A stretch of DNA of 64,000 nucleotides from Muricauda sp. SCSIO 64092 (GTDB lineage: Bacteria > Bacteroidota > Bacteroidia > Flavobacteriales > Flavobacteriaceae): assembly GCF_023016285.1 (NCBI RefSeq), contig NZ_CP095413.1:1054001-1118000 (forward strand). Direction: 5' to 3'. The position numbers and the translations under genes were made by a program. The notes under the pieces were generated by a model. That model was given only the letters and a program-made list of their open reading frames with translations. It was not told the origin of the DNA and did not search any database. Shown here one piece after another: positions 1,903 to 19,509 of this stretch (position 1 is its first letter; every line of letters begins with the position of its first letter).

Positions 1903-3402
1903 TTAGTCAAAAAAATTTACAAGCAACAGTAATGAAGAAACAACCAATATTAAAAGAAATGACCTATATACTTCTTTGTTCTCCCAAAATGGAAATAATA
2001 AAGAAACAAGGGGAGGTTCATTTGACTTGGGCGTATCCATTTGTGAATATAGGAGATAAAATAGATAAACGAGCATACCATTCCTACTTGACAAGAGTAA
2101 AGTGCCCAATAAACTAGGTTTTCCTAATTTGATTGCTGATTTGCTTATAATATCACTATCGTATAAATATGGAAAAATAATTATGCTCAATAATAATATG
2201 AAAAGCCATAACAAGCCAATACCGTAATGCTTGTTTGGAAATAATATAGCTATAAAAGAAATTGGCAATAAAAAGTATTGTGTAGATAATACCTTACTTC
2301 CAATTAAAAAAAATAATAATGTAAGCAGGTAACCTGTACCAATTATTACGGGCTTGGTCGAAGCAATACAAGACGAACTTTTAACTCTTTTGTTAGAAAG
2401 AAATTGAAAAATTTTGAAGAAGACCCCCATACAGCCAAAAAAAATTATAAAAAATGATAATTTGGAAATAAAAGGGGAAACTATTGATACAACATTTTGA
2501 CTTCCAAAGGAAGTTTCCAGTTCGTAAGAAAGTCCAAAAAGACCGATTAATTGTATAATAGTACTATATAAAGATTCTATTTGAATCCCTCGATTACCGT
2601 GATAGCCCAAAAAGGAAAAAGCATATGACCCATAAACCCAATAACAAGAACCTAGTATCCCTAAACTAAAAATTATCAAGTACCATAAAGATTTCAATAC
2701 AAATGTGTATTGTTTAAAACACTTAAAGTCTATTATTCTACAGTCAAAATTAGACAACCAACCTAGAGTCCAAATCGGTAATAACAAAAGAGGGATCAGT
2801 TTAAAACAAATACCAATCGAAAGAAAAAATGCAGAAAGCAAAAGGCGTCCTTGAATTTGAAAATAGAAGCACACAGTTATTAGAAAGAGTAGTACCATGT
2901 CTAGGCGGTCGTAGATTAAATCAATAAATATGACAGTACTCAACAGGTAAAGAATACCTCCCAAGAATAAGTAAGAGATATAAGTATTTTCGTTTAAGTA
3001 TAATCTACGAATTATAAGTAATAAAAATGTAAAATTGGCAAAATCAATAAAACAGAGGATTCCACGGTAGCTTTTTATATAGAGGTCCAAATAAGAAGTA
3101 AAGGGAAGTGAAGTGTCCCAAATCAGATAATTTGGTGTGTACAAGAAAGCAACAGCCAAAGGAGGATATTCAAGTGAAGTTATATCGTAAATAGTCAGCC
3201 CTTTTTCTTTGGCAGTTAAAGATTGATAGCCAATTGTTGCATAGTATTCTATGTCCGATTGTAATGCATGTTTGTTTATAATACAAGTTCTGGTAAGAAC
3301 AAATGCCAACCCAAGTAAAAGCAAACATTTTTTTTCAGGTGTCAAAGACTTCAAATGGAAATTATATGATTTACATCGGTTAAGGAAATTCAATAGAATC
3401 AT
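1903..3402 (-). CDS. Polytopic membrane glycosyltransferase (GT87/DUF2029-like)
   Basis: A 499-aa protein with about ten hydrophobic segments and few charged loops. An acidic residue early in the first periplasmic loop (Ser-Asp-Ile-Glu-Tyr-Tyr) and an Glu-Tyr-Pro-Pro-Leu motif near residue 79 are typical of GT-C superfamily enzymes of the GT87/DUF2029 group, which transfer mannose or other sugars from polyprenyl-phosphate donors on the outer face of the inner membrane. The gene diverges from a second GT-C type gene at 3674, with 271 bases between the starts. Codon use is AT-rich, like its island neighbours. Substrate and acceptor are not predictable, and GT39/GT83 would be alternatives. Confidence 0.65.
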   Translation of the reverse strand: MILLNFLNRCKSYNFHLKSLTPEKKCLLLLGLAFVLTRTCIINKHALQSDIEYYATIGYQSLTAKEKGLTIYDITSLEYPPLAVAFLYTPNYLIWDTSLPFTSYLDLYIKSYRGILCFIDFANFTFLLLIIRRLYLNENTYISYLFLGGILYLLSTVIFIDLIYDRLDMVLLFLITVCFYFQIQGRLLLSAFFLSIGICFKLIPLLLLPIWTLGWLSNFDCRIIDFKCFKQYTFVLKSLWYLIIFSLGILGSCYWVYGSYAFSFLGYHGNRGIQIESLYSTIIQLIGLFGLSYELETSFGSQNVVSIVSPFISKLSFFIIFFGCMGVFFKIFQFLSNKRVKSSSCIASTKPVIIGTGYLLTLLFFLIGSKVLSTQYFLLPISFIAILFPNKHYGIGLLWLFILLLSIIIFPYLYDSDIISKSAIKLGKPSLLGTLLLSSRNGMLVYLFYLLYSQMDTPKSNEPPLVSLLFPFWENKEVYRSFLLILVVSSLLLLVNFFD

Positions 3403-3673: not shown

Positions 3674-4993
3674 ATGGACATTCATCCTCTTTTTCTTAAA
3701 TATAGGTACTTGATTCTTATTATTTTAGTATCACTGGTTCACTGTCCAACATTGCATAATGATTTTCAAGAGTTTTGGGACGATCAATGGGCCATTACCA
3801 ACAATCCTTATATTCTAAATCCTACATGGGAGAATATGAACATTTTATTTACTACATTTTATAATGGCCAATATGCTCCACTAAACGTTCTATACTACCT
3901 TGGAATTCATCAATTGTTTGGATTTAATCCTGCTATATTTCATCTTTTTTCTTTGCTTTTTCATCTACTAAATGTCTACTTAGTTTATCTAATTGTTTAT
4001 AAACTGATAAAACAATTAAAAAAAGCGTCTAGCGAAAACGCAAATAAAATCTACGCTTTTTTGGTTGCACTCATTTTCGGTATTCATCCTCTTCAAGTGG
4101 AATCTGTCGCTTGGGTTAGTGCGTCAAAAGTTTTACTTTACTCTACTTTTTATCTACTTTCCATATTATTATACATAAGGTATTTGCGTAGCAGAAACCT
4201 TTTCCTAATAATGGGTGTTTTCTTTTTATACACCATCAGTATTGGTTTTAAGGAACAGGGAATAGTACTCCCATTAACGCTAATTTTACTAGATTTTTCT
4301 TATAACCGTCTTTCGTTAAGAATAGGAAGCATCTCCCCATTTCTTAAAGCTATAGGTGAGAAAATTCCATTTTTTTTAATTGCATTATCCTATTGGATTT
4401 TTTCTTCCCAATTTGATGTGGGTAACCTTAGATTGGAAGATGGGTATCCCTTACCGCAAAGAATTCTATTTGGTACCGAGAGTTTGATGGACTACTTATT
4501 TCGTTTCCTTGCACCTATTAATTTATATTATTATTATCCTTTTCCCAACAATCAATTTCAATCCTTTATGGATATTCAAATAGTTTTAGATTTCGTTTTA
4601 GTCTTAGCAATTTTGGGTTATTTCATAAAGCAATATTATACTGCAAATCGGATCTTAGTATTTGCATTCCTCTTTTTTACCATAAACATTTTTTTGGTTC
4701 TTCATGTTATACCAATTCCAAGAACTGTATTAACAGCGGACAGATATATCTATATGGCAATAATAGGACCGTCATTAGCAACTATTTGCATTTTGGATTC
4801 GATGATTACTAAGCAGTTCAGTCAATCATCTTTAATTAAAATTTGGATTGCGACAATCACATTCATGGCCTTAGGTCTAAGAACTTTTATCAGAACTATT
4901 GATTGGAAAGATTCCAAAAGCTTAAAAATGAGCACACTATATCATAAATATGAACAGCCAACAGAAAATAGAAAAGGGATAAAACCGATTTAG
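3674..4993 (+). CDS. TMTC/DUF1736-like membrane glycosyltransferase without TPR tail
   Basis: A 439-aa multi-spanning protein. The first periplasmic loop has Trp-Asp-Asp around residue 38, followed by ITNNPYI and NGQYAPL, and then FHLFSLLFHLLNVYLVY and GIHPLQVESVAWVS. These are the landmarks of the TMTC-type O-mannosyltransferase family (GT-C fold), in which the paired acidic residues are catalytic and bind a polyprenyl-phosphate sugar. Most family members continue into a long TPR domain after the last helix. This one stops about 30 residues after the last helix, in a basic, polar tail. It may be a naturally short form or a truncated gene; I saw no TPR-coding sequence downstream in another frame. 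It diverges from the GT87-like gene and may act in the same surface-glycan process. Confidence 0.65.
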   Translation: MDIHPLFLKYRYLILIILVSLVHCPTLHNDFQEFWDDQWAITNNPYILNPTWENMNILFTTFYNGQYAPLNVLYYLGIHQLFGFNPAIFHLFSLLFHLLNVYLVYLIVYKLIKQLKKASSENANKIYAFLVALIFGIHPLQVESVAWVSASKVLLYSTFYLLSILLYIRYLRSRNLFLIMGVFFLYTISIGFKEQGIVLPLTLILLDFSYNRLSLRIGSISPFLKAIGEKIPFFLIALSYWIFSSQFDVGNLRLEDGYPLPQRILFGTESLMDYLFRFLAPINLYYYYPFPNNQFQSFMDIQIVLDFVLVLAILGYFIKQYYTANRILVFAFLFFTINIFLVLHVIPIPRTVLTADRYIYMAIIGPSLATICILDSMITKQFSQSSLIKIWIATITFMALGLRTFIRTIDWKDSKSLKMSTLYHKYEQPTENRKGIKPI

Positions 4994-5552: not shown

Positions 5553-5789
5553 ATGCCTACAAAAGTGAATAAAATTTTAAACGGTTTCCTGATCATGGTT
5601 TTCTTGGCCGCATTTGCAATGAATATCAATATGTCTATTGATGATGGGCCACAATTTGCAACCATAGAAGCGAACGCGTCAAGTTCCTATAAAGGCCCTC
5701 TTTGTAGTAACTCTTCTGGAGACACCTATTGCTGCAAAGACAGTTCTGGTGATTGTGGGGCTGGTGCTAGTTGCTCGGATTGCCGATAA
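5553..5789 (+). CDS. Small secreted cysteine-rich NVEALA-like peptide precursor
   Basis: A 78-aa protein. Residues 4-26 form a short basic stretch and a hydrophobic helix typical of an export signal. Residues 36-43 read FATIEANA, resembling the Asn-(Val/Ile)-Glu-Ala-Leu-Ala block of the Bacteroidota NVEALA family of small exported proteins. The last 30 residues are Gly/Ser-rich and hold six cysteines (C51, C60, C61, C68, C74, C77), an even number compatible with three disulfides or metal binding. It heads a cluster with a beta-propeller lipoprotein, a CxxC thioredoxin-like protein and a signal peptidase. A strong hairpin follows it, which would let the small gene be expressed more than those downstream. 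The mature product and its function are unknown; family assignment is by motif only. Confidence 0.65.
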   Translation: MPTKVNKILNGFLIMVFLAAFAMNINMSIDDGPQFATIEANASSSYKGPLCSNSSGDTYCCKDSSGDCGAGASCSDCR

Positions 5790-5806
5790 ATATTTGAATT
5801 TAACAG

Positions 5807-5836
5807 AAAGGTTGCCAACTTGATTTGGCAACCTTT
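5807..5836 (+). terminator. Perfect 12-bp hairpin after the NVEALA-like gene
   Basis: AAAGGTTGCCAA (5807-5818) and TTGGCAACCTTT (5825-5836) form a perfect 12-bp stem with a six-base loop, 17 bases after the stop codon of the peptide gene. There is no long T-run after it, so it may be a partial terminator, an mRNA 3'-end stabiliser, or a processing site that sets unequal expression of the peptide and the three genes that follow. Confidence 0.6.
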
Positions 5837-6036
5837 ACAAAATGTGGTGCTTTTTTTTAAGCATTTAACTAACTCATGACAATAATCAATTCTTTTAATG
5901 AATTAAAGAGTAAATCTTAATTGTTCCAATCGCAAAATCAATACTAGTAAAAATTCGTTTAGTGCGAAATCACTTTATAATTTACAACAAGGGTTTATAG
6001 ATAAAAAGTATGTGAGTAAATTAAAAGAATCATTCT

Positions 6037-7254
6037 ATGAAGCTAATTAATGGAGTTATATTTTGTTTTCTACTTCTTCTTGCCTGTAAAAAGGACACTA
6101 AAATTAACGGAAACAAAATGAATAATAATTTAAATCTCAAATCAATTGAGGTCGACCTTTCTAAAACCAATAGGATTTCCCTTAGTCAATTATATGATAG
6201 TATAAATTTGATTCCTCTCGAAACAACCTTTAACAATGTTCTTGACGAAGTACTTAAACTATCTTTTCATAAGGACAAATTTTACTTGCAAACTTCTACA
6301 ACATTATCAATATATTCTCAAAATGGAAAGTATATTAATTCTATAGATAGTCAAGGAATAGGAGAAGGTAAATATATTAACATATCTGATTTTCATGTTA
6401 ATAAAGATGAATCTTTAGAGATTTATGACAGTAAATCAAAAAAGATTCTAAAATATAACAAGAGAGGAAACTATATCGATGAAATTAATGCAATATTGGA
6501 TGGATACTCTTTTGCCAAGTTGAGTGACAGTCTTTATGCTTTATATATAGGGTCTTTAGCCCATAACAGAGACTCTCATTTTAAACTAAATGTCATTAAT
6601 AAGAAAGAAGAAATTGTAAAAAGATATATCAGAATAAAAGATAATCAAGCTCGATTTATGCATCTTGGTGATTTAAGAAACTTTCAGAGTTTAGAATCCT
6701 CGAATTCATTCTTTTATAGCTTTAATGATACAATATATAAGATAACAAATAAGGGAGATGTTTTTCCAAGTTACTATATAGACTTTGGAAATCATAAGTT
6801 ACCTGAAACTTATCTTAATGAAAATTATGGAAACATTATGGAGTTTTTGGAGCCTCTTAAAAAAACTGATTATGCCTACAGAATAATAGGTTTTTTAGAA
6901 ACAAACGGTTTTATGGCTTTTGGTTTCATGAATAAAGGTGAGATACCCCACTTCTATTATTCTATCAGTGACAATAAAGGATATCTTGTCAATTCCATAA
7001 GTTACGATTTGCTTTTACCTGGACTAGTTATGAAAGCTTCGATTGATAATTTACCCATGGCCGTAAGTGGCAGAAAATCGTATTCGATTATAAATGCCAA
7101 TACTCTGATTAAAGAAATAGATTCGCTGCGAATGTCAATGAGTACAGTGGAATGGGATAAGTATTCTGAAACAAAAAAAAAAATTGTTTCAATTTATAAT
7201 AGTATTGACATTGAAGATAATCCCCTGATTATAGAGGGCTATTTAAAACTATAG
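6037..7254 (+). CDS. 6-bladed beta-propeller lipoprotein (BF3164/DUF5128-like)
   Basis: A 405-aa protein with a lipoprotein signal: hydrophobic residues 8-16, LLAC lipobox, Cys17 followed by Lys-Lys-Asp. The mature part begins with IPLETT at residues 58-63, then repeated four-strand motifs of the kind FYLQTSTTLSIYSQNGKYI, GIGEGKY and ILKYNKRGNYIDEI, which are hallmarks of the Bacteroidota 6-bladed beta-propeller family (DUF4934/DUF5128). Such lipoproteins are often encoded beside NVEALA peptides, which fits the gene at 5553. The next gene starts two bases after its stop, so they are co-transcribed. Probable site is the periplasm or outer membrane; ligand unknown. Confidence 0.75.
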   Translation: MKLINGVIFCFLLLLACKKDTKINGNKMNNNLNLKSIEVDLSKTNRISLSQLYDSINLIPLETTFNNVLDEVLKLSFHKDKFYLQTSTTLSIYSQNGKYINSIDSQGIGEGKYINISDFHVNKDESLEIYDSKSKKILKYNKRGNYIDEINAILDGYSFAKLSDSLYALYIGSLAHNRDSHFKLNVINKKEEIVKRYIRIKDNQARFMHLGDLRNFQSLESSNSFFYSFNDTIYKITNKGDVFPSYYIDFGNHKLPETYLNENYGNIMEFLEPLKKTDYAYRIIGFLETNGFMAFGFMNKGEIPHFYYSISDNKGYLVNSISYDLLLPGLVMKASIDNLPMAVSGRKSYSIINANTLIKEIDSLRMSMSTVEWDKYSETKKKIVSIYNSIDIEDNPLIIEGYLKL

Positions 7255-7256
7255 AA

Positions 7257-7883
7257 ATGAAGAAATACTATTATCCATTTTTGTTCCTTGGTCTTACCTT
7301 ACTTTATGTCCTTACAATATATAATTACTTTAAAATTAAGAGGATATACGAAAGAAAGGAAGTGCTTTACACTAAACAAATTAATGACCTGAAATCGGTA
7401 AAAGCATTATTTAATACTGAAAATCAGCTTAACTTTGAGTCAACTTATAGATTTGGGAATAAATACATTAGCGACGATATCAAGCTCTATCGAGGAAAGA
7501 ACGAAAAATATTCTTTAGAAGACATTAATAAGAATCCAAAGTTAGTCTATCGGATATCAGATAATGTCTGTGAAATATGCTATGACAATGTTTTAGCTCA
7601 GTTAATTGAATTTGAATCTAAAAATCAAAATGAAAATAACATTATCATATTGGTTCCTTTAGATAGAATTCGTGAATTAAAGGTTTATTTAACTAAAAAC
7701 AATTTAAACATTCCCTATTATGGTATAAAAGAGGATACTCTAGGTATAGGGGTCAGCAAATTCCATCCATATTTTTTCATTTTAGAAAATAATATTGCAC
7801 AGCATATTTTTGTACCTTCTAAAAATGAGATAAAAAGCACTGAAAAGTATCTTGATATAATTTGGACACGATATTTTTCTTAA
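7257..7883 (+). CDS. Membrane-anchored thioredoxin-like protein with CxxC
   Basis: A 208-aa protein with one N-terminal transmembrane helix (residues 7-26), a short charged linker and a periplasmic domain. Cys105 and Cys108 form a Cys-Glu-Ile-Cys motif, preceded by a hydrophobic strand (LVYRIS) and followed by a helix, as in thioredoxin-fold proteins. Later segments (IIILVPLD, then HPYFFILENN) match the beta3 and beta4 strands of redoxins, with a Pro close to the expected cis-proline position. It may oxidise, reduce or isomerise disulfides, and the six-cysteine peptide encoded upstream is the obvious candidate substrate (inference). It lies two bases after the propeller gene and 29 bases before the signal peptidase gene. 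Confidence 0.55.
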   Translation: MKKYYYPFLFLGLTLLYVLTIYNYFKIKRIYERKEVLYTKQINDLKSVKALFNTENQLNFESTYRFGNKYISDDIKLYRGKNEKYSLEDINKNPKLVYRISDNVCEICYDNVLAQLIEFESKNQNENNIIILVPLDRIRELKVYLTKNNLNIPYYGIKEDTLGIGVSKFHPYFFILENNIAQHIFVPSKNEIKSTEKYLDIIWTRYFS

Positions 7884-7912
7884 CGTTGGTTAACTATTAA
7901 CGAAAACACTGT

Positions 7913-9058
7913 GTGAGGAAGATAATTGGTTTTTTTTTGTGCACAATATTGTTACTGCTTATCTTAAGAATATTTTGGTTGGCTTTGGGCCTGCTTGGCT
8001 TTGGACTTGTTTTTTTACTTCTTGCCTCAAATTTGGGTCTAGTTAAAATGATTAAGAAAAAACGTTGGCTGTTTTATTTCTTGATTTTTTTTTTCGTGTT
8101 TGCATTTGCCGTATCACTGAGAGTATTTGTGATAGAAATGTATAAAATCCCGAGCGGTTCCATGGAGAACACTTTGGCTACTGGCGACATGATTTTGGTA
8201 AGTAAACTCAACTATGGCCCTCGTTTGCCAAAAACACTATTTGAAATTCCTTGGCTGAATACTTTTAACACCACAGGTAAATCTTACATTAACGATTATG
8301 GTGTCAACTCAAAGGATAGAAGGCTAAAAGGATTTTCAAAGGTTACCAATAATGAGGTTGTTGTTTTTGAACACCCTAGGGAGCCTGGAAATTATTTAGC
8401 TAAAAGGTGTGTTGGAATACCAGGTGATTCTTTAAGCATTCTTGACGGTTTTGTACATATTAATGGGGTTGAGATAGACAAGTCTAAAAGCCTCAAAAGG
8501 AAGTATAGGGTTTGGATTAAAAACAACCTATCACATTGTGAAAAAAAAAATCCAAACACTTCGATCCTGAATTTAAGCTTTTATGATATCCTTCGAAAAA
8601 AATTGGAAATAAATATTACAAATGATTACCATAGATTACTGGAAAATTTACATTTGTTTGATTCTATTACACTAATTGATACTCCTATAGAAACAGATCC
8701 AAATGGCAAAATAAACTGGTCTTTACACAATTGGGAAGCGACGGTGGTACCACATAAAAATCAAAAAATAATACTAGATGTAAATAATTACGCTTTCTAT
8801 AAAGGTATAATTGAAAAATTTGAGGAAGTAAAAATAGTATTCCATAAAAAAAAATTTTATGTAAATGGGAAACGAATTAAGTCATATAAGTTCAAAAGGA
8901 ATTACTATTTTATGTTAGGTGATAATAGAAATTACTCGATTGATTCAAGACATTGGGGATTAGTGCCCGAAGAGAAAATTATTGGCAAAGTTATACTTAC
9001 CTTATATTCAATTAATAGAGATTCGGAATTGGAACGTTTGTTCAAAGTAACAAGATGA
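7913..9058 (+). CDS. lepB: Type I signal peptidase, second copy-type
   Basis: A 381-aa S26-family signal peptidase. Two N-terminal hydrophobic segments (about 4-40 and 51-68) precede the catalytic region. Box B is KIPSGSMENTL with catalytic Ser83, box D is YLAKRCVGIPGDS with general-base Lys164, and box E is GDNRNYSIDSRHWG at 336-349. About 155 residues lie between boxes D and E, a long insertion seen in Bacteroidota enzymes. GTG start at 7913, chosen because it precedes the first membrane segment; no ATG alternative precedes Ser83 in a good position. As it lies in the NVEALA-like cluster, not in a housekeeping setting, it may be dedicated to processing the peptide at 5553 or to one of its partners. 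That role is inferred from context only. Confidence 0.85.
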   Translation: MRKIIGFFLCTILLLLILRIFWLALGLLGFGLVFLLLASNLGLVKMIKKKRWLFYFLIFFFVFAFAVSLRVFVIEMYKIPSGSMENTLATGDMILVSKLNYGPRLPKTLFEIPWLNTFNTTGKSYINDYGVNSKDRRLKGFSKVTNNEVVVFEHPREPGNYLAKRCVGIPGDSLSILDGFVHINGVEIDKSKSLKRKYRVWIKNNLSHCEKKNPNTSILNLSFYDILRKKLEINITNDYHRLLENLHLFDSITLIDTPIETDPNGKINWSLHNWEATVVPHKNQKIILDVNNYAFYKGIIEKFEEVKIVFHKKKFYVNGKRIKSYKFKRNYYFMLGDNRNYSIDSRHWGLVPEEKIIGKVILTLYSINRDSELERLFKVTR

Positions 9059-9138
9059 AATTAGTATAACATCTTTCAACCGGATTGAATACGGGATTAT
9101 CAAATGTTTCGGTCCAAGATGTAAAACAGGCAAAGTTT

Positions 9139-11436
9139 TTATTCTTTCCTTATTTCGTTTATAGGGTTCATCATCATGGTTTTTGCGACTTGCAAGCTTA
9201 GTGTAACTGAAGATACTACTATTACGATTAATACTGATATCGCGAAAATCCAAAAATTAAGCTCAATCTTATTTGCAAAACCCATTAACCATTGATTCAT
9301 TAAGTAATACCCAATGGGTATGGCTATAATAAAGGCTATAAGTATTCGCCTTGTAAATGTTATGGTCAACAAGTTTAAAATATCGATTGAGGTTGCACCA
9401 AGCACTTTACGAATTCCCATTTCCTTGGAACGATTTTGAGTCACCGCCCAGGAAAGAGCAAACAGACCAAAACACGATAATAGAATACTAATGATTGAGA
9501 AGGTGACAATTAACTTGAAGAAAAAAGTATCTTCCTTGTATTTTTTCCTAAGTTCCTCCTCAAGAATGCTATATTTAAAATAATTGGAGGAAAATACCTT
9601 GCTCCACTCTTTTTCTATCATGGGGAGTACTGTTTTTAAATTGTTCCCTTGATAGTCTATTAATAATGATTTTCCTGTATCATAATAAGAAATAATAACA
9701 GGGGGGATTTCTTCTTTGAAGGATCCACATGTAAAATCTTGTACAACTCCAATAATTATATCTTCCGTACCTGGTACTTTCTTACCTATTGGTTTTTCCA
9801 AATTGAATTGACGTATTAATTTTTGGTTAACAAGCTTTCCGTGACGGACATTTGAAGGCAATTCCCCTTCCAGTAAAGTTAAATCCAATGTTTTGAGAAA
9901 ATCTTCATCTCCTCCGAACAAAAATGGTGTATAAGTTTTGCCATTATCTAGTTCGTAGCGACTTATCATATTTCCCGTAATCGGGTTTCCTCCACTGACG
10001 GTCAAATTATCGATGAAAGGCAAACTTGCTATATTTTGTTTAATAATATGAAGCTTTTCAGAAAAATCTTGGCTTGGTGCGTCTAACTGTATAATGCTAC
10101 GATTGAAACCTAAAGATGCATTTTCCAAGAAATTCATTTGTTGTACTAGGGTAATCGAACAAATTGCCAATGTTATGGAAATGATGAATTGAACTGTAAA
10201 TAAAAATCTGTTGAACGTTATTCTTGAGGACTCTTTTGCCATCAAATTCACTGGTTGAATACGCAATTGTTTTGACACAGAAAACATCACAGTCATTACC
10301 CCACAGACAAACAAAAAAAGGCTCAAATAGACAACAACTTTTGTGTTAAGTAGATATTCCATAGAAAAGTTGTATTCGAAAACTGAATTAAAAACAGGGA
10401 TTATAAGAATTGTAATTCCTAGCGATACTATAAAACTGACCAGAATATAAAACCCAGCTTCAGTAATCGAAAAACCAAATAGTCCTTTTTTGGAAATCCC
10501 CAATGTTTTTTTTATTCCCACCTCCTTTTTTCTTTCTTGCCAAAAAAGCAAAAAAAGATTGATGAAGTTAAAACCTGCAATAAAAATTACTAGTAAACAG
10601 GCGATATACCCAATTTTCAAAAAAGTTGGATTTCTTGTTTTCATGAAATCCATTTTATTTTCAAGTCGAAAATATGATTCTTCAAGAGCTCCAAAGAAAT
10701 AATTAATTTTCCCAGGCCCTATAAGTCCTGGCCTGTTGATATCATTATTGATTTTCATCTCCAAGGATTCGGACAGATTGGAATCTGTTAGCAGCGCATA
10801 ACTAGGACCGCCACGCCATTTATCTGGAAAAGTAGAGTTGTGCATTATAGCGTCAAAATTCAGATGGCTGTTCACACTAGGTCTGCGTGTGACAGCTGAG
10901 ACCATAAGTTTTAGGGTACTGTCTGGGGTTATGACCGTAATTGGTTGACCGACAACTTCAGATTTGCCGAATAATATTTCAGCCTTTTTCTCCGAAATCA
11001 CTATGTTTCCCGGAGCCAAACATTCGCTTCTGTTTCCGTAAACGATAGGGAAATCAAAAATTGAAAAAAAAGACTTGTCAGCCAACAATACAGTGAAATC
11101 ACGGAATGTATTTTTTCCTACCTCTAAATTTAAATCTTTCAAACTGGCAAGTTGAGTAACTTCTTCGATTTCTGCATAGTTCTCGATTAGATAATCGGAA
11201 AAAAAACTGGGTATATAAACAATGTGACTATCCCCATTAAATGGATCACCACTAAAAATCTGAAAAATTTGATTTTTTTTTGAGTGAAATGAATCTGTAT
11301 CGGTTTCGTAGGTAAGAAAGGATATTAGGATATTTGAGCAGACAAATGCAACTATTAGACTTAATAATATAATAGAGGTATAAATCTTCTTACCCCATAA
11401 ATTCCTCAAAATAAATTTAAGATTGTATCTTAACAT
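9139..11436 (-). CDS. FtsX/MacB-type ABC transporter permease (large form)
   Basis: About 765 aa when started at ATG 11436; an in-frame TTG at 11484 would add 16 residues. The chosen start gives MLRYNLKFILRNLW, the usual beginning of this Bacteroidota permease type. Order: helix 1 (about 20-40), periplasmic MacB core domain, three helices of the first FtsX domain around residues 270-400, a second periplasmic domain, and a second FtsX domain ending near the C-terminus with the signature KEMGIRKVLGA. No ATP-binding subunit or adaptor is encoded next to it. It converges on the signal peptidase gene with an 80-base gap. Mechanotransmission or efflux is likely for the family; the substrate is unknown. 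A role with the Cys-rich peptide is possible but unsupported. Confidence 0.8.
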   Translation of the reverse strand: MLRYNLKFILRNLWGKKIYTSIILLSLIVAFVCSNILISFLTYETDTDSFHSKKNQIFQIFSGDPFNGDSHIVYIPSFFSDYLIENYAEIEEVTQLASLKDLNLEVGKNTFRDFTVLLADKSFFSIFDFPIVYGNRSECLAPGNIVISEKKAEILFGKSEVVGQPITVITPDSTLKLMVSAVTRRPSVNSHLNFDAIMHNSTFPDKWRGGPSYALLTDSNLSESLEMKINNDINRPGLIGPGKINYFFGALEESYFRLENKMDFMKTRNPTFLKIGYIACLLVIFIAGFNFINLFLLFWQERKKEVGIKKTLGISKKGLFGFSITEAGFYILVSFIVSLGITILIIPVFNSVFEYNFSMEYLLNTKVVVYLSLFLFVCGVMTVMFSVSKQLRIQPVNLMAKESSRITFNRFLFTVQFIISITLAICSITLVQQMNFLENASLGFNRSIIQLDAPSQDFSEKLHIIKQNIASLPFIDNLTVSGGNPITGNMISRYELDNGKTYTPFLFGGDEDFLKTLDLTLLEGELPSNVRHGKLVNQKLIRQFNLEKPIGKKVPGTEDIIIGVVQDFTCGSFKEEIPPVIISYYDTGKSLLIDYQGNNLKTVLPMIEKEWSKVFSSNYFKYSILEEELRKKYKEDTFFFKLIVTFSIISILLSCFGLFALSWAVTQNRSKEMGIRKVLGATSIDILNLLTITFTRRILIAFIIAIPIGYYLMNQWLMGFANKIELNFWIFAISVLIVIVVSSVTLSLQVAKTMMMNPINEIRKE

Positions 11437-11484
11437 TAGATTAACAATACGAAGTGTTTGCAGATGACCTACTCCTTTTATCAA

Positions 11485-11941
11485 CCAAATGTAAAATACA
11501 AATTCCTGTCCATATTTTTATAATATGGATGTTAAAAACTCTTAGATATGAAGTCTTACCATTCATAACTACCAACCAATAATGGAAACTTAAATTGATT
11601 TGATGATATTGAACCCGCCTTGAGTTCATAAGATTTACTGCAAAAATAGCTGCCTGCCCCCTGGGTACAAAATCTTGTTTTTTGAACTAAAGGCGGGTTC
11701 ATTTTCCCCAAAACCGTTGAATTCCGTTTATTGTTTTAGTTGAATCCCTTAGGAGGAACGTTTATTCGGACAAAAATCTGCATCTTGCTACTCTTTACAT
11801 TTTGCCGGTACGTTTGAAAGAGGAGATGGCAAGAACCCTGTAGGATGGGAATTTTCAAAAAATAACTTTTTAGGATTCAAATCGGTGTTAATTGTACTTT
11901 TTAAATTGTCATTTACAAAAAGTTGTTCTCCTAAAGCTGAT
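11485..11941. other. Spacer with a long inverted repeat, no clear gene
   Basis: About 460 bases between the permease gene and the OmpA-family gene. It holds the 18-bp inverted repeat listed separately. On the minus strand, from inside the end of the OmpA gene down to about 11785, a frame of roughly 55 codons is open but lacks a start; on the plus strand a roughly 40-codon open stretch overlaps it. Either could be a decayed gene fragment. I recognise neither. Confidence 0.4.
11611..11700. repeat. 90-bp element bounded by 18-bp inverted repeats
   Basis: GAACCCGCCTTGAGTTCA (11611-11628) pairs with TGAACTAAAGGCGGGTTC (11683-11700) at 16 of 18 positions, with about 54 bases between. The GC-rich ends stand out in an AT-rich spacer. 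It could be a MITE-like element, a large hairpin terminator for the OmpA operon, or the footprint of an excised element. Confidence 0.5.
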
Positions 11942-13879
11942 CTAGTCAAACAAAATATTGTCGTTTAGGATTACGATAAGGGAGCGTCTATTTTGTCGAT
12001 GTAGCATTTCCAAACAATACACCCCATTTTTACAATTGTTCAGGATTTTATCTTCACCGTAACCAATGGAATATAATATATTGCTTGAGGGAACACCATG
12101 ATTCGCGAGATAGTCCTTAATGGCATCTGAACGCGCCTGCGTAAGTCTAAAATTGGCGGCAGCACTACCTTGACTGTCCGTATGGCTTTCTATTCGTAAC
12201 TGAACCGCTGGAAAACGCTCTACAAAATCAACTACCTTGTCCAATTCAATGGCAATATCCGGGGTAACTTTTGATTCACCATTCCCAAAGAAAAACTTTT
12301 TGAGTTTTACAACTTTCTGTCCTTCCCTTTCTTCGACCAAATCATCATAAAGTGCAATTCCAATATTCAGGTTCCCCTTTTGAACCGCCTCTATTTGTTC
12401 TCCTTCAAATATTGCCGAAAAGATGGAGAATCTGTCCTTGGCAGCCTCAACACGTACTTTTGATTGCGATGGAATTTCAATGGAATAGTCCCCTCGATCG
12501 TTGGAAAGTGTTTCCAGCAAAAGTTCACCTCCTGGCCCATACACTTTAATACGGGCATTGGATACGCCCTGCATATTGTTCAATCTTACGACCTTCCCAT
12601 TCAATGCAAAGGTCTTGATTCCCGGTTTTTCGTCGACAAAAAATCCAAATACATCATCTTTTCCTTTGCCACCTGCCCTATTGGAAGAAAAATACCCCTG
12701 TAGCCCGTTTTCATGATTTTTGATGATAAACCCAAAATCGTCTGTTTCCGAATTAATGGGTTTGCCGAGATTCACGGGAATGGTAAAACCACCTTCCTTG
12801 AAATTTGCCTTATAAATGTCCATCCCTCCAAGACCATAGAAAACATCCGTGGAAAAATAAAAAACACCTTCAAAAATGTATGGGGCTATTTCATTGCCCG
12901 GGGTATTTATTTTTGGCCCTAGATTTATGGGGGCGGACATTATTTGACCGTTACTGGTATTTACATAATAAATATCGGTACCTCCATAACCATCTTTCAG
13001 ATTAGCGGAAAAGTAGAGTCTAGACGTGTTATCATCGTAAAAGGGATAATAAAACGAAGTACTCAAATCCCTCCAAAGGAATTTAAAACTGCCCCCTATT
13101 TTTTGCATCCCTATGGAAAGTGCATTTTTTCCGCTTTCATCAAATTCAAGTTCTCCTTCGAGTGTATTGGAAAGCACATAAAAGATACTGTTCAGGTCTT
13201 CTGAAAAATAGGGCGTGGCCTTATGATAATCCGAATCCCGAATGGCATTGAGCCTATCTACCTTGGCCACTTGGCCATTTGCGGCAATCTCACCCTCAAA
13301 AACATCCAAGTAGGCCTCACCCATAGGTTCGTAACTTTCGCCCTTTCCCAGAGGGCGCCCGCTGGTAAACAATAGACCGTTTCGATAAAAAGCTGGTGAA
13401 AAATCGGACTGGGTACTGTTGGCATCCAAATTAAACACCCTGTAATTATGGTCTTCATCGTTCTTTTTTGAAGTCAACAATTCCATGTTAAACTTGGCAT
13501 TCTCCTGTAATTCCCTGGAGAAGTCCAACTTGTTGTCATTAAGAAAAGTGGTCAGTCTTTCTTTGTTGGAGGTCCTTCCCAGTCCCTGTAGCAACATATT
13601 AAGATGATCCCCTTCCATTATGCTGTCCTGGGCAAACAGTTCGAGATAAATATCCGTTGCCTTTTCGAACTTATTGGTTTTAAAATAAGAGTCTGCCAAA
13701 TTCAAATATTGCCTTGGGGACAAACTGCCCCCTTTTTCCAAATCCCTTTCGTAGGCCGCAATGGCATCCGAATAGGCGTAGGAAAAGAAATAACCATCGC
13801 CCTTGGATTCCTTGTACTGTCCATGGAGCATTGCAAATCCGAGGACAAAGCAAAAAAGTGTGTTCATCTTCATACACAT
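11942..13879 (-). CDS. OmpA-family protein with TPR and PD40 repeats
   Basis: A 645-aa exported protein: signal peptide at about 1-20, TPR-like helices to about 120, then a WD40/PD40-like propeller (about 155-430, with repeated segments such as DDNTSRLYFSANLKDGYGG), a carboxypeptidase-regulatory-like beta domain (about 430-510), and an OmpA/MotB peptidoglycan-binding domain at the C-terminus (IESHTDSQG, then RSDAIKDYL). This architecture regularly follows PorP/SprF genes in Flavobacteriia and is thought to link the outer-membrane part of T9SS adhesin modules to the cell wall. Three nearby Met codons make the exact start uncertain by up to four residues. The PorP/SprF gene ends 10 bases upstream, so they share an operon. 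Confidence 0.88.
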   Translation of the reverse strand: MCMKMNTLFCFVLGFAMLHGQYKESKGDGYFFSYAYSDAIAAYERDLEKGGSLSPRQYLNLADSYFKTNKFEKATDIYLELFAQDSIMEGDHLNMLLQGLGRTSNKERLTTFLNDNKLDFSRELQENAKFNMELLTSKKNDEDHNYRVFNLDANSTQSDFSPAFYRNGLLFTSGRPLGKGESYEPMGEAYLDVFEGEIAANGQVAKVDRLNAIRDSDYHKATPYFSEDLNSIFYVLSNTLEGELEFDESGKNALSIGMQKIGGSFKFLWRDLSTSFYYPFYDDNTSRLYFSANLKDGYGGTDIYYVNTSNGQIMSAPINLGPKINTPGNEIAPYIFEGVFYFSTDVFYGLGGMDIYKANFKEGGFTIPVNLGKPINSETDDFGFIIKNHENGLQGYFSSNRAGGKGKDDVFGFFVDEKPGIKTFALNGKVVRLNNMQGVSNARIKVYGPGGELLLETLSNDRGDYSIEIPSQSKVRVEAAKDRFSIFSAIFEGEQIEAVQKGNLNIGIALYDDLVEEREGQKVVKLKKFFFGNGESKVTPDIAIELDKVVDFVERFPAVQLRIESHTDSQGSAAANFRLTQARSDAIKDYLANHGVPSSNILYSIGYGEDKILNNCKNGVYCLEMLHRQNRRSLIVILNDNILFD

Positions 13880-13889
13880 GGATTTGAAA

Positions 13890-14867
13890 TTAAAAAAACC
13901 TTGGCGAATCTATTTGTTTTGGTTTGCCTTTTAACTTATTAATTCTTTTGTTCCTTGCCCTGGAACCTCCATCACCGCGCCCTAAATAAAACTTTACTAT
14001 GGCCTCATGTGAAGCGCCTCCAAACTCCCCAAGACCATTGGTACTGTAATCATACGAATAGCCAAAAAATATACTGTTCGAAACTTGTAGTCCCGCCACA
14101 CCACTAATTGAGTTGTTGATTCGATAATTGGCCCCCAACGTCAAAGCGTCCAAAAAGAGGAAATTTGCCGACAGGTTAAAGTTAACGGGGATTCCTGGAA
14201 GGTAGTTCAGTAAAACGGCCGGTTTAAATTTGGTTCGGTCAGAGATATTGAAAATACAGCCTGCTATAAAATTATATTGCAGATCGTTGTCCACAACAGA
14301 CTCCAATTCTGCCTCATAGATTCCTAAGGTCAAAAAATTGGGAATGGACAAACCTGCATACCATTGCTCTCCATACATAAACAATCCCGCCCCGACAACT
14401 GGATAAAACTCATTGAAGTTCTGGCCTCCAATCAAAGGTTCTCCCGGATTCTGAAAATTCCCTTTGGAAAAGTCCAAATCCAAGATGGATCCCCCTGCAT
14501 CGATACCAAAGGATAGCCAGGAGTCATTGGACATTTTTATTTGGTAGGAATAGGCAACATCAATGAACGTTTGGGTGGATGGCCCCAACACATCACTCAC
14601 CACATTAAATCCAAGTCCCATTTTTTCATTGGAAAAGGGAATATTGGCACCGAACCTAATATTTCTTGGAGCGCCGGGAATATCTACCCATTGTGCCCTA
14701 TACAATCCCGAAAATTCCGCTGATTCCACGGAACCTACATAAGCGGGATTAAAACTCCCTATATTGTACATATATTGGGTATATTGAGGTTCCTGTTGAG
14801 CACGCACCATACACCAGACCATGCTGAATGTAAGGGTTAAATAGATATAATGCTGTTTTTTAAACAT
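13890..14867 (-). CDS. PorP/SprF-family outer-membrane protein (T9SS associated)
   Basis: A 325-aa protein with a signal peptide (about 1-23) and the family opening QQEPQYTQYMYNIGSFNPAY, followed by alternating strands of an outer-membrane beta-barrel. PorP/SprF proteins bind and help secrete or anchor substrates with type B (CHU_C) T9SS sorting domains. It sits 10 bases after a giant gene of exactly that type and 10 bases before the OmpA/PD40 gene, forming the standard adhesin, PorP/SprF, OmpA trio. A basic tail after residue 295 is slightly long for the family. Confidence 0.9.
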   Translation of the reverse strand: MFKKQHYIYLTLTFSMVWCMVRAQQEPQYTQYMYNIGSFNPAYVGSVESAEFSGLYRAQWVDIPGAPRNIRFGANIPFSNEKMGLGFNVVSDVLGPSTQTFIDVAYSYQIKMSNDSWLSFGIDAGGSILDLDFSKGNFQNPGEPLIGGQNFNEFYPVVGAGLFMYGEQWYAGLSIPNFLTLGIYEAELESVVDNDLQYNFIAGCIFNISDRTKFKPAVLLNYLPGIPVNFNLSANFLFLDALTLGANYRINNSISGVAGLQVSNSIFFGYSYDYSTNGLGEFGGASHEAIVKFYLGRGDGGSRARNKRINKLKGKPKQIDSPRFF

Positions 14868-14877
14868 GCTCTTCCAG

Positions 14878-17800
14878 TTATTTTATGATTTGAATCCACC
14901 CCTTTGTTGCATCCGAACCATCACCTAAATCCAAAACATAAAAGTAGGTTCCCTTGGGCAAATCCCCATTATCCCCAGTACCGTCCCATGTGCTATCATA
15001 TGCTTGTTCTTCATAGACCAAATTGCCATATCGGTCAAAAATTTGAAGGTTATTGTTAGGGAAATTTTGATGTCCCACCAGGATTAAGGTATCATTTATG
15101 CCGTCACCATTTGGGGAAAACAGATTGCATAAAGTCCCTTGATCAACACATTCACTTTGAGATGAATTGATTTCCACCGTTGCTGAATTATTGGAATTAT
15201 CCCCATCTATTGGTATAGAGCTGATTAAACTGGCCGTATTCCCCAACCTTCCCAATTGGGCCACCCTTACCGAAATAAACAAATTGGTGGAGGCTTCCCC
15301 CAATAATTCCGGTATGGTCCAAAGACCTGTCGTACTATCATAAATCCCAGATTCTGCATTGGTTGACACAATCTCAAAACCTGAATCCCCATCAATTAAA
15401 TCCAAAACCACAATATCTATTCCCCTTTCCATACTTAGGTTGGTTGCCGTAATCGTAAAATTGATGATATCCCCAATTAGCGGTTCGGGGGAATCCACTG
15501 ATTTTTCAACCAAAATATCTATAGGTTCTGCACTGCAATCCGCGGTTAGGAAGGGGTCACAATCATCCAGGGGATCACTTGCCCTCTCCGGAACTGCATC
15601 AGTAGTGGGATCGTCCTCAACCAAAACTTCCTCCCCATCCGTCAATCCATCATCATCGGAATCCGCATCAAAAGGATTTGTCCCCAAATCAATTTCCTCA
15701 GCATTGGTAAGACCATCCATATCACAATCACTATCCCCGAGAGGGGTTCCCCCTACGGAATCACAATCGTCCAATGGATCGGTCGCGTCCACGTTCACTT
15801 CCTGACCATCTTCAATACCATCACCATCGGTATCGGGATTATTGGGATCGGTTCCCAAATCTATTTCAACGTCATCATCCAATCCATCAAAATCCGCATC
15901 CAGCAAACAATCGATAACATTGACCGTCACTTCCACAGATTCATTGGTACACGGAGCTTGTGCCCCATTGGTGGTATATACAAACACATAGCTTCCCTCT
16001 GGCAATCCGGAAAAATCAACCGTATTATCCGCATTTATGGATATCGATCCATTGGAAGGATCTGTACCAACGGCCCAAAATCCTGGATCTGCACCTGTTA
16101 GAGTGGTGTCCAAATCCAAAATAGTCGTACCTCCAGGACCAACTTGCGAACAAGCCGTAGTATCGGTAGGTGTTCCAGGGGAGGGTTGGATATTGACCGT
16201 GGCAATAACCTCGGTACGTGGAGATGGACAACCATTTTCCGTGGCCTCCACGTAAAAAGAAGTGGTGCTGGTCAATGTTGGTGTGGTAAAAGAACCCCCA
16301 GAACCTAATATTGTTGTTGATGTGGGCGAATCGAACCAATTTATGACTGCACCTAGCGATGCTGTTGCCGTTAGTGTTAGTTCACCCCGACCACAGAGGA
16401 TTCCCCCGGCAGTAGACAGAATTGAAGGTGTTGTGTTGATGACCAGTGTAACTTCCACCGTTGGACTGAAACAACTATCATCACGATCCAAATAAAAACC
16501 ATAAAATGTACCTGGGAAAGAAACCCTACTGGGCCTGTAGGCACTACTCAGCGTTTGGTCCGGATTTGTACTCCATATTAACTCAGCATCCGGAGGGGGG
16601 GGTCCAATGATGTAGTCATTCAAATCCACGGCCAACATATCACAAAAATTGGTGGGCTGAGCAGTGTCAAGAATTGGGGATGGCAAACAATTGTCATCGT
16701 CTAAAATAGTTCCCGTGGCCGTACCTCCATCAGACAAAAGCACCCCATCGCTTGGCGTACCCAATTGCACCGTAAAAGTTTCACTGTTTTCCAACGCGTT
16801 ATCATCAATAATAGGAACTACAATTAATTGGGTCTCTCCGCTATTTCCCAAAAAAACTATGGAACCTCCAGTATTGTCATAGTCCACTCCCCCGGTAGCA
16901 GAACCATCCAGTAAGGTATATGGCACACTAAATCCTCCTGGTTTTTCGATGTCCAGTATAACCGGAATGTTGAGTTCCCCTGAAGCCGAATCTTCCTCTA
17001 TGGCTGCGTCACTTATGGACACCACTGCCTGGTCGTTATCTTCATTTACTATTTGGAGATCAGGTACATCTGCCCCCGTAAGTGCATCGTAAGCAGCATC
17101 TGTTGAGGTAACATCTCCTGTATTGATCGTATAGGCAATATCACCGTCATCAATTAAATCATCCTCTCCCATGACTATAATTTCAACCCCGGTCTCCCAA
17201 TTGGTTGGAGTAAGTACCACCTGGCTAGGGCCGTTGCCCTCCGTACCATCATATCCGGTCAATGGAATGACCACATTATCGGTTGGGCTGGCATCCAAAG
17301 TAAAGGTAAAAGTTACGGAACCTCCTATTTCCGTGGTGTTCCCTGAAGTATTATCAACCCTGACCCCTGGCATATCATCATCCAAATTTGTGGCTGCCAC
17401 CAACCCATCAGGCACAAGATCATAGGCATCGTCACTGGTTCCATCCAAAACTCGAACACGAACGGTATAGCCCTCTGTTCCATCCACTACATCATCATCT
17501 TCCCCTGTAACCGTAACGGTTTGTGGAACGTTCCAATTGCCGTTGGTGAATGTCAATAGTGCAGGTGTGACCGTGCCTTCCCCGGTATCAAGGGAAACCA
17601 CACTTAAACGTACGTTGGTCAACGGCTGTGCCGTAAGTGCTACCGTAAAAGTATCAGATGTTCCGGATTCGCTGGTCGTCGTACTTCCAAGACTTTGGAT
17701 TATTGTGAGGCCTGCGTTGTCGTCATTGGTTATTGTTCCTACTCCTACGCCATCCCCTATTGTACCATTGGTCACCCCACTGAGCGTCACGTTAAAGGTT

Positions 17801-19509
17801 TCGTTGCCCTCAACAACGCTATCACCATTCACCTGGATGGTCACCGTAGTACTGGGAGTGCCGTTCAATATGGTACCGCTGCCGTTAGTAATTGCTGCAT
17901 AGTCCGTGCCCGCGGTGGCCGTGCCGCCGCCCGTGTTCACTGTGAAGCCGATGTCTCCCACCGCATTGCCCCCGTCAACACTGACCGTGAACCCGAAGTT
18001 CGTCGTCCCGGCGTTGCCCTCCGCCAATGTCACATCACTGATGCTTATCGACTGGCTGTCGTCGTCCGTGAAGGAACTGTTCCCCACCGCCACCGAGATG
18101 CTCGCGTTGGCGCTCTGGTTGCTCAGGGTCACGCTGACAGCCTCGTCACCCTCAACCACCGTGTCCCCGGTGGTCGTCACGCTGACCGTCTGGCTCAGCA
18201 CCAATGTGTTCGCAGGGAAGGTCAGGGTGTTCCCCGTGCCGTCCTCGTTGCCACCGGAAATGAGGTAGTCCACCGTAATCGGGGAAACAGGGTCCGCCGC
18301 GTCTATGCTCACCGTGAAGTCTATCTGCGAGGGGCCCGCATCACCCTCCGGGACCGCGGCCGGACTGTCTATGCTGATATCAAAGGTGTCGTCGTCCGTG
18401 AAGGAGCTGTTCCCCACCGCCACCGAGATGCTCGCGTTGGCGCTCTGGTTGCTCAGGGTAACGCTGACCGCCTCGTCGCCCTCGACCACCGTGTCCCCGG
18501 TGGTCGTCACGCTGACCGTCTGGCTCAGCACCAATGTGTTCGCAGGGAAGGTCAGGGTGTTCCCCGTACCGTCCTCGTTGCCCCCGGAAATCAGGTAGTC
18601 CACCGTGATCGGGGAAACAGGGTCCGCCGCGTCTATGCTCACCGTGAAGTCTATCTGCGAGGGGCCAGCATCGCCCTCGGGGACCGCGGCCGGGCTGTCT
18701 ATGCTGATATCAAAGGTGTCGTCGTCCGTGAAGGAGCTGTTCCCCACCGCCACCGAGATGCTCGCGTTGGCGCTCTGGTTGCTCAGGGTAACGCTGACAG
18801 CCTCGTCACCCTCGACCACCGTGTCCCCGGTGGTCGTCACGCTGACCGTCTGGCTCAGCACCAATGTGTTCGCAGGGAAGGTCAGGGTGTTCCCGGTGCC
18901 GTCCTCGTTGCCCCCGGAAATGAGGTAGTCCACCGTGATCGGGGAAACAGGGTCCGCCGCGTCTATGCTCACCGTAAAGTCTATCTGCGAGGGGCCAGCA
19001 TCGCCCTCCGGGACCGCAGCCGGGCTGTCTATGCTGATATCAAAGGTGTCGTCGTCCGTGAAGGAGCTGTTCCCCACCGCCACCGAGATGCTCGCGTTGG
19101 CGCTCTGGTTGCTCAGGGTCACGCTGACCGCCTCGTCGCCCTCGACCACCGTGTCCCCGGTGGTCGTCACGCTGACCGTCTGGCTCAGCACCAATGTGTT
19201 CGCAGGGAAGGTCAGGGTGTTCCCCGTGCCGTCCTCGTTGCCCCCGGAAATGAGGTAGTCCACCGTGATCGGGGAAACAGGGTCCGCCGCGTCTATGCTC
19301 ACCGTAAAGTCTATCTGCGAGGGGCCAGCATCGCCCTCCGGGACCGCGGCCGGGCTGTCTATGCTGATATTAGATTGTCCTAATCCGAAAAAGCACGCAA
19401 ACAAAAAGAGTATAAAAACAAGTCTTTGTAAAGAGGTGCTTTTTAAAGTGAAATAAAGAATCCCTAAGTAGGATTTTATTTGTTCTGTTAGATTATGGAC
19501 TAAAACCAC
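14878..19509 (-). CDS. Giant Calx-beta adhesin with type B T9SS C-terminal domain
   Basis: A 1543-aa secreted protein. Order: signal segment to about residue 45; four identical 110-aa Calx-beta-like repeats (about 46-485, each with DTVVEGDEAVSVTLSN); further Calx-beta units to about 890; Ig-like beta domains; an acidic calcium-binding thrombospondin-3-like block (for example DADFDGLDDD and DTDGDGIEDG) near 1195-1295; a DUF11-type beta domain; and a C-terminal gliding-motility/CHU_C domain starting LFSPNGDGINDTL and ending with KGTYFYVLDLG. That last domain is a type B sorting signal read by the T9SS. Probable role: surface adhesin in gliding or attachment, stabilised by Ca2+. The first codon is GTG at 19509; no Met exists before the signal helix, so the true start is uncertain. 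It leads the adhesin, PorP/SprF, OmpA operon. Confidence 0.88.
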   Translation of the reverse strand: MVLVHNLTEQIKSYLGILYFTLKSTSLQRLVFILFLFACFFGLGQSNISIDSPAAVPEGDAGPSQIDFTVSIDAADPVSPITVDYLISGGNEDGTGNTLTFPANTLVLSQTVSVTTTGDTVVEGDEAVSVTLSNQSANASISVAVGNSSFTDDDTFDISIDSPAAVPEGDAGPSQIDFTVSIDAADPVSPITVDYLISGGNEDGTGNTLTFPANTLVLSQTVSVTTTGDTVVEGDEAVSVTLSNQSANASISVAVGNSSFTDDDTFDISIDSPAAVPEGDAGPSQIDFTVSIDAADPVSPITVDYLISGGNEDGTGNTLTFPANTLVLSQTVSVTTTGDTVVEGDEAVSVTLSNQSANASISVAVGNSSFTDDDTFDISIDSPAAVPEGDAGPSQIDFTVSIDAADPVSPITVDYLISGGNEDGTGNTLTFPANTLVLSQTVSVTTTGDTVVEGDEAVSVTLSNQSANASISVAVGNSSFTDDDSQSISISDVTLAEGNAGTTNFGFTVSVDGGNAVGDIGFTVNTGGGTATAGTDYAAITNGSGTILNGTPSTTVTIQVNGDSVVEGNETFNVTLSGVTNGTIGDGVGVGTITNDDNAGLTIIQSLGSTTTSESGTSDTFTVALTAQPLTNVRLSVVSLDTGEGTVTPALLTFTNGNWNVPQTVTVTGEDDDVVDGTEGYTVRVRVLDGTSDDAYDLVPDGLVAATNLDDDMPGVRVDNTSGNTTEIGGSVTFTFTLDASPTDNVVIPLTGYDGTEGNGPSQVVLTPTNWETGVEIIVMGEDDLIDDGDIAYTINTGDVTSTDAAYDALTGADVPDLQIVNEDNDQAVVSISDAAIEEDSASGELNIPVILDIEKPGGFSVPYTLLDGSATGGVDYDNTGGSIVFLGNSGETQLIVVPIIDDNALENSETFTVQLGTPSDGVLLSDGGTATGTILDDDNCLPSPILDTAQPTNFCDMLAVDLNDYIIGPPPPDAELIWSTNPDQTLSSAYRPSRVSFPGTFYGFYLDRDDSCFSPTVEVTLVINTTPSILSTAGGILCGRGELTLTATASLGAVINWFDSPTSTTILGSGGSFTTPTLTSTTSFYVEATENGCPSPRTEVIATVNIQPSPGTPTDTTACSQVGPGGTTILDLDTTLTGADPGFWAVGTDPSNGSISINADNTVDFSGLPEGSYVFVYTTNGAQAPCTNESVEVTVNVIDCLLDADFDGLDDDVEIDLGTDPNNPDTDGDGIEDGQEVNVDATDPLDDCDSVGGTPLGDSDCDMDGLTNAEEIDLGTNPFDADSDDDGLTDGEEVLVEDDPTTDAVPERASDPLDDCDPFLTADCSAEPIDILVEKSVDSPEPLIGDIINFTITATNLSMERGIDIVVLDLIDGDSGFEIVSTNAESGIYDSTTGLWTIPELLGEASTNLFISVRVAQLGRLGNTASLISSIPIDGDNSNNSATVEINSSQSECVDQGTLCNLFSPNGDGINDTLILVGHQNFPNNNLQIFDRYGNLVYEEQAYDSTWDGTGDNGDLPKGTYFYVLDLGDGSDATKGWIQIIK
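18061..19380 (-). repeat. Four tandem 330-bp repeats in the adhesin gene
   Basis: Units begin at 18061, 18391, 18721 and 19051 and repeat with an exact 330-bp period. They encode identical 110-aa Calx-beta modules. The few differences I could see are at third codon positions (for example GAA/GAG and GTC/GTA) and are silent. The tract is clearly richer in G and C than the rest of the gene. Confidence 0.93.

Follow-up and report, generated by a model that had tools for sequence, protein, structure and literature searches.

Four genes at 5553..9058 of the window, the whole 64,000-nt stretch of Muricauda sp. SCSIO 64092 analysed here (NZ_CP095413.1, 1,054,001-1,118,000), encode in order a small precursor peptide, a propeller lipoprotein, a CxxC protein and a type I signal peptidase, all on the + strand in the list of open reading frames (ORFs) (Table 1). 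It is reasonably probable from the sequences that they form a recurring, probably acquired module whose predicted task is the production, trimming and folding of a secreted disulfide peptide. Distant Bacteroidota carry the same four genes in this order, in one case on a human gut plasmid, and the genes likely represent one mobile system that makes and ripens diverse disulfide peptides. A preliminary description of this DNA had reported the gene order, spacings of 2 and 29 bases, six Cys in the last 28 residues of the peptide and the catalytic residues of the peptidase. All of these were seen again, with 2 bases between the propeller and CxxC genes, 29 between the CxxC and peptidase genes, 247 between the peptide and propeller genes, and Cys at peptide residues 51, 60, 61, 68, 74 and 77. 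Its proposal that the four genes are a real unit is borne out by their recurrence in the same order in other Bacteroidota.

Table 1. Coordinates of the four genes, the predicted mature peptide and associated features.
Feature	Length	Position	Strand	Characteristics and basis
Precursor peptide	78 aa	5553..5789	+	Hydrophobic core ~12-23, linker, EANA|S at 39-43, 36-aa tail
Predicted mature disulfide peptide, residues 43-78		5679..5786	+	Conserved A-x-A site and edge of P0023 match
6-bladed propeller lipoprotein DUF5128/DUF4934	405 aa	6037..7254	+	Pfam; lipobox LLLAC read in sequence
CxxC protein, thioredoxin-like	208 aa	7257..7883	+	N-terminal hydrophobic anchor; C105-E-I-C108; conserved P171
Accessory type I signal peptidase S26	381 aa	7913 (GTG)..9058	+	Ser83/Lys164; Pfam; tree
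Hairpin, perfect stem	12-bp stem	5807..5836	+	Between peptide and propeller; second hairpin and T run after
Second, decayed module L006		7587-11958 of L006 (own genome, 4.26 Mb)		Reading frames by eye and Pfam

The order peptide, DUF5128 propeller, CxxC protein and signal peptidase was also found in loci L172, L173 and L174 of a single genome, G153 (the peptides of L173 and L174 being taken from the ORF list), in which four small contigs each carry a peptide, a propeller, a CxxC protein (recognized by eye in L175) and a whole or partial peptidase. The L172 peptide is that of P0029, whose source is Algibacter pacificus, and G153 probably belongs to this species. The contigs L172-L175 are 3-4 kb long, as though repeated copies of the module had broken the assembly. 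The same four-gene order was present in L176, from a relative of the same class (G865), whose peptide matches the NVEALA family with 45.6 bits (cut-off 27). Another version, with a DUF4221 propeller and a GLGCxGC lipoprotein, keeps the order in L044, L045 and L051, contains inserted genes in L050 and L057, and is otherwise arranged in L052, L055 and L056.

A search seeded with the peptidase in 149 genomes of the family, whose listed matches are a lower bound, recovered short peptidases outside the window's own genome in G002, G018, G044, G118 and G131 (twice), that is, in at least 5 of the 148 others; Cys peptides were present in five of the six loci found in this way (none at L043). The scan of the genome collection seeded with the GLGCxGC lipoprotein gave ten loci, two of them query rows that had themselves been found via the peptidase. 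The eight non-query loci come from Chitinophaga, Flaviramulus, Mucilaginibacter, three Bacteroidales/Bacteroidetes metagenome-assembled genomes (MAGs) and two Tannerella MAGs. In seven of them a signal peptidase lies 53 to 8,243 bases from the lipoprotein, inside a 10-kb limit, and six have a Cys peptide (not L053 and L058). Peptides over the NVEALA cut-off were found in 2 of 392 genomes, in four clusters, three of which include a peptidase. Relatives of the window's CxxC protein are scarce: a first scan of genome contigs gave no match, a one-row query matched 2 of 299 genomes of the family, one of which is that of the window, hence 1 of the 298 others, and alignment A1 matched, among 296 genomes of the order, only the window's own. 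The co-occurrence in related genomes on which the preliminary description had staked the unit is thus rare by the CxxC, short-peptidase and congener counts (the last given below); the module is rare, yet its parts usually stand together where it is found.

As a control, no Cys peptide was detected in 145 kb around 29 housekeeping-type peptidase loci, mostly only 4 kb long and with the own LepB counted twice, versus 18 distinct ones in 318 kb from 18 module loci, two of which overlap and some of which were picked for their peptides. When loci found via the peptidase were left out, a peptidase was present within 10 kb in 9 of 11 loci with long leaders (L050, L051, L052, L055, L056, L057, L126/L179, L176 and L177, not L013 and L178) versus none of three with short leaders (L129, L136 and L138), the leaders being judged by eye and the cases few and post hoc.

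Copies on plasmids extend this distribution. A tblastn search of plasmids matched 23 records, of which H2, H4, H6, H7 and H8 were opened; H7 and H8 carry the module, H4 and H6 turned out to hold LepB pairs beside dapB, and in H2, which has no annotation, our own profiles found only a tandem peptidase pair. According to its annotation, pPvulCL10_1 of Phocaeicola vulgatus encodes in order an NVEALA domain-containing protein, a 6-bladed beta-propeller, a redoxin domain-containing protein and signal peptidase I, followed by an O-antigen ligase, a hypothetical protein and a transglutaminase, and pBdorCL06T03-4 of P. dorei carries a module copy whose redoxin gene seems to be split by a transposase region. 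The two Phocaeicola gut plasmids L199 and L200 are 92-95 kb long, and that of P. dorei has a SusD/TonB/fucosidase cluster close by. An accessory-type peptidase was matched in none of ten congeners, which gave LepB-sized matches only, so that among the 11 genomes of the genus only that of the window has one. The absence from congeners, the AT-rich region and the relatives on plasmids make it likely that the module was acquired horizontally.

In tables of a published study, Bacteroides thetaiotaomicron BT0662 is named O-antigen ligase, BT0663 hypothetical, BT0664 6-bladed beta-propeller, BT0667 signal peptidase I and BT0669 RND adaptor, and the BT0662-BT0669 entries are placed among iron-responsive genes in both directions, mostly with weak p-values (PMC10434189). 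Judged by these published gene names alone, BT0662-BT0669 is probably this module. A literature search found no description of the four-gene system and, although NVEALA peptides and these propellers bear names in gut genomes, no paper giving them a function.

The window's peptidase is an accessory enzyme besides the housekeeping LepB. It matches Pfam Peptidase_S26 (E 3.4e-36, 125.2 bits, cut-off 22.9) and TIGR02227 (124.1 bits, cut-off 47), and it shares with LepB the S26 domain and the Ser/Lys pair, Ser83 and Lys164 being unchanged across an alignment of 13 S26 proteins. Elsewhere the genome encodes a separate 570-aa LepB with ParA-, ParB- and DapB-like neighbours recognized by eye, so the window copy is not the only LepB and the earlier designation as a second type I signal peptidase holds. 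Unlike LepB, module copies stand beside peptides, occupy another part of the tree and measure 287-416 aa, versus about 510-590 aa in the Flavobacteriaceae LepB seen. Length distinguished the accessory type in Flavobacteriaceae only; in other groups many copies have ~350-400 aa, and neighbourhood and trees were therefore used to call it. In a quick tree, one branch (SH-aLRT, an approximate likelihood-ratio test, 98) divided 19 module peptidases from 33 others, and in a careful tree of 57 rows the window copy fell in a group of 12 module rows (support 99/93), with all 20 module rows split from the other rows (99/97) except for two tandem LepB rows; in these trees, 17 rows of unknown role were counted among the others. 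The quick tree was clean for one common origin of the module copies; the careful one, which included more Bacteroidales rows, was not, with one change in 10% of its bootstrap trees. In the Bacteroidales loci L196 and L197, a tandem signal peptidase pair lies beside dapB, and the second copy is long-branched and placed near the module peptidases.

The peptide resembles those of NVEALA systems, in which peptides accompanied by DUF5128/DUF4934 propellers have a leader of ~42 residues ending in [NT]-[VI]-E-A-x-A and a variable Cys-rich tail: the window leader ends in TIEANA at residue 42, and the gene order, peptidase included, is that of L176 and pPvulCL10_1. The description as NVEALA-like stands, although the peptide scored 12.5 bits against Pfam NVEALA (PF14055, cut-off 27) and was not counted as a member. 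As a single query it found no database relative, and 42 relatives were found only with a profile from an 11-row alignment. Among 11 aligned locus peptides, M1, both Ala of the A-x-A and one Cys are invariant. In the 41 database relatives scored for this site, which are not independent (they include many near-identical rows as well as some of the locus peptides) and for which the script favoured A-x-A followed by E, Q or D, the A-x-A ends at residue 41-46 in 38, Glu follows directly in 40, 189 of 192 Cys lie after the site and three before it, and the Cys count behind it is even in 40. The distance from the hydrophobic core to the A-x-A is 19-34 residues in 12 locus peptides, versus a median of 5 (interquartile range 3-7) from core to cut in 87 other exported proteins. 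The leader is thus unusually long, with a conserved end in A-x-A ~42-46 residues in and Cys almost only behind it. An even number of Cys appears to be a tendency; the two plasmid NVEALA peptides have, by our count, six and five. The Bacteroidetes Q-rule, which concerns signal peptidase I substrates within this phylum, has Gln after the site (PMC5837995), whereas 40 of the 41 relatives carry Glu there and their site is far from the hydrophobic core.

Leader and core seem to vary separately. The mature part of the window peptide is identical to that of P0023 at 24 of 36 positions (67%) versus 10 of 42 in the leader, and the match of the core covers 39 columns (69%) with ANA as its first matching residues. 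In the NVEALA set (12 rows, 11 distinct, 66 pairs) mean identity is 0.44 in the leader and 0.23 in the mature part, with 0.17 for shuffled mature parts, and the leader is more alike than the core in 61 of these 66 pairs and in 47 of the 66 pairs from the other set. A related G-x-YCC core follows short leaders at L047 and L129 and an NVEALA leader at L146; cores and leaders may be exchanged.

The propeller matches Pfam DUF5128 (E 4.4e-33, 115.3 bits, cut-off 22.9). In the CxxC protein, C105, C108 and P171 are invariant across eight aligned rows, with P171 at the cis-Pro place and its cis state assumed. A CxxC with a later conserved Pro is shared with the ResA/FetE oxidoreductases; a profile of the window's own CxxC family matched ResA weakly (E 0.023), and the model of the GLGCxGC sister family is of thioredoxin type (predicted local distance difference test, pLDDT, 84.7), with FetE 8t4c as best match (E 5e-4) at a template modelling (TM) score of only ~0.4. 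Unlike those oxidoreductases, the window's CxxC protein has no Pfam match over the cut-off, AhpC-TSA reaching 16.9 bits (cut-off 26).

Taken together, these features suggest, as the most likely reading, a pathway in which the precursor would enter the Sec pathway and stay anchored by its N-terminal hydrophobic segment. As the A-x-A lies too far from this segment for ordinary processing, the accessory peptidase would cut at that distal site. The CxxC protein, or in sister loci the GLGCxGC lipoprotein or perhaps a DUF1573 protein, could form or correct the disulfides, and the propeller, often one per peptide, might bind the mature peptide so as to carry it, to hold it at the surface or to protect the producing cell. 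RND pumps (L013, L044, L046, L047 and L048) and O-antigen-ligase-like and transglutaminase-like proteins may join in at other loci; none of these was found near the module in the window. Our own profiles detected Wzy_C-TPR proteins in L013, L045, L050-L053, L055-L057, L126, L176, L177 and L199, and transglutaminase-like proteins in L043, L044, L050, L052, L055, L057, L126, L171, L176, L177 and L199; with Pfam, Wzy_C exceeded its cut-off in L013 and Transglut_core in L055, and neither did in L044 and L057. The distal A-x-A site, the modularity of leader and core, these partner genes and the plasmid copies are additions to the preliminary description, whose roles for the CxxC protein, peptidase and propeller and whose use as a peptide signal, toxin or adhesion system are kept here as proposals.

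Several observations weigh against such a pathway. A peptidase is missing near the NVEALA peptide of L178 and up to the contig end in L013, although the genome of the latter has other peptidases, and L058, which matches only in part and lies at a contig edge, shows propeller and CxxC pieces with neither peptidase nor peptide in the stretch. Conversely, L046, L047 and L048 combine short ordinary leaders with accessory peptidases, so that the link between leader and peptidase is not strict, and peptides outnumber propellers in L046, L048 and L175. DUF4221 propellers (14 of 392 genomes) lie near a peptidase in only 2 of 26 regions (25 fetched and L047); the propeller alone is therefore not the marker of the module and was dropped as such. 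Two long-branched tandem Bacteroidales LepB rows were placed inside the module group of the careful tree. AlphaFold2 gave no usable model for the CxxC protein of the window (pLDDT 44). As for the peptides, the site of the window copy is followed by Ser instead of Glu and its leader is divergent, the Cys count is even in just 9 of 11 distinct NVEALA peptides, and 15 of the 87 control exported proteins also gave a gap of at least 15 with the crude script. Finally, the hairpin listed in Table 1 may separate the peptide from the operon.

Contact with other cells, in competition or recognition, appears to be the likeliest use of the module, given that cores vary more than leaders, that several copies occur per genome and that plasmids carry it. 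We advance only tentatively, as falling a little short of an even chance, the wider proposal of a phylum-wide mobile system in which a private type I signal peptidase cuts a distal A-x-A and so frees hypervariable disulfide peptides, each having its partner propeller lipoprotein, as a polymorphic arsenal or for self-recognition. If true, such a system would be present on human gut Phocaeicola plasmids and probably in B. thetaiotaomicron BT0662-BT0669, would show a signal peptidase that has specialised in a propeptide site, and could be a source of natural disulfide peptides from the gut and elsewhere; the private signal peptidase and thiol protein also give NVEALA peptides and propellers a testable pathway.

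A more specific alternative, possible if somewhat doubtful, is that the mature peptide is a microcin-like antibacterial and the propeller its cognate immunity or carrier lipoprotein. The greater variability of cores than of leaders, the several modules in one genome, plasmid carriage, the RND pumps in five loci and a lanthipeptide dehydratase ~5 kb from the L047 peptidase agree with this, whereas none of nine scanned peptides matched a bacteriocin family over the cut-off and a propeller is not known as a usual immunity fold. The module is like those bacteriocin and ribosomally synthesized and post-translationally modified peptide (RiPP) loci that have dedicated leader peptidases in its kept leader, variable core, protease and, in some loci, export genes; it differs in its Sec-type-looking leader, its type I signal peptidase as protease and its predicted disulfide chemistry. 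In L047, the stretch 8647-16480 holds this dehydratase and a double-glycine-like small peptide ~2-6 kb from the accessory peptidase, near DUF1573 and RND genes.

We regard as unlikely that the O-antigen-ligase-like and transglutaminase-like partners attach the mature peptide to surface glycans or proteins, with the propeller keeping it at the outer membrane; both partners are present in many loci, but neither was found in the first 16 kb of the window, the only stretch searched for them in its own genome. The transglutaminase-like protein or the housekeeping LepB might instead remove the leader in place of the accessory peptidase, as the many loci with transglutaminase-like proteins and the NVEALA peptide of L178 would allow. 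This is improbable, since A-x-A is the signature of type I signal peptidases, and no transglutaminase-like protein was found in the window's first 16 kb, L045, L051 or L056. That unrelated genes merely collected in an AT-rich, unstable region, as the AT content, the patchy distribution and the decayed second locus might suggest, is already contradicted by the same order in distant taxa and can be practically dismissed.

Regarding the layout of the locus, GC content per 500 bases is 0.26-0.39 over about 1.5-11.7 kb and 0.39-0.47 on either side of this, up to 16 kb. The AT-rich island of the preliminary description is real, but it is wider than the four genes. The hairpin between peptide and propeller and the second hairpin following it are a candidate attenuator or terminator; with this strong hairpin and the 247-base gap, the peptide may be transcribed apart from the other three genes. 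The hairpin is absent from the terminator-like sites listed, for which the pattern used wants a T run right after the stem, and stems perfect over at least 10 pairs occur in 4 of 12 scanned spacers after peptides, so such a hairpin is not general among loci.

The second module of the genome, L006, comprises a frame that by eye has a propeller-like end and an insertion-element-like start, together with a GLGCQGC lipoprotein, an MG2-like protein and a signal peptidase divided over two frames, with Pfam Peptidase_S26 in the second piece. Beside the window's module, a MacB/FtsX-type permease adjoins it on the - strand (9139-11484), scoring below the cut-offs of NCBIfam ADOP and of the darobactin exporter DarB, and a similar permease lies upstream in L045. 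The AT-rich stretch also holds two many-pass membrane proteins, at 1903-3402 (-) and 3674-4993 (+), glycosyltransferase-like by eye and with no Pfam match over the cut-off. Further along, at 14878-19509 on the - strand, a 1543-aa protein has four near-identical repeats of ~105 residues and, by eye, a gliding-type C-terminus.

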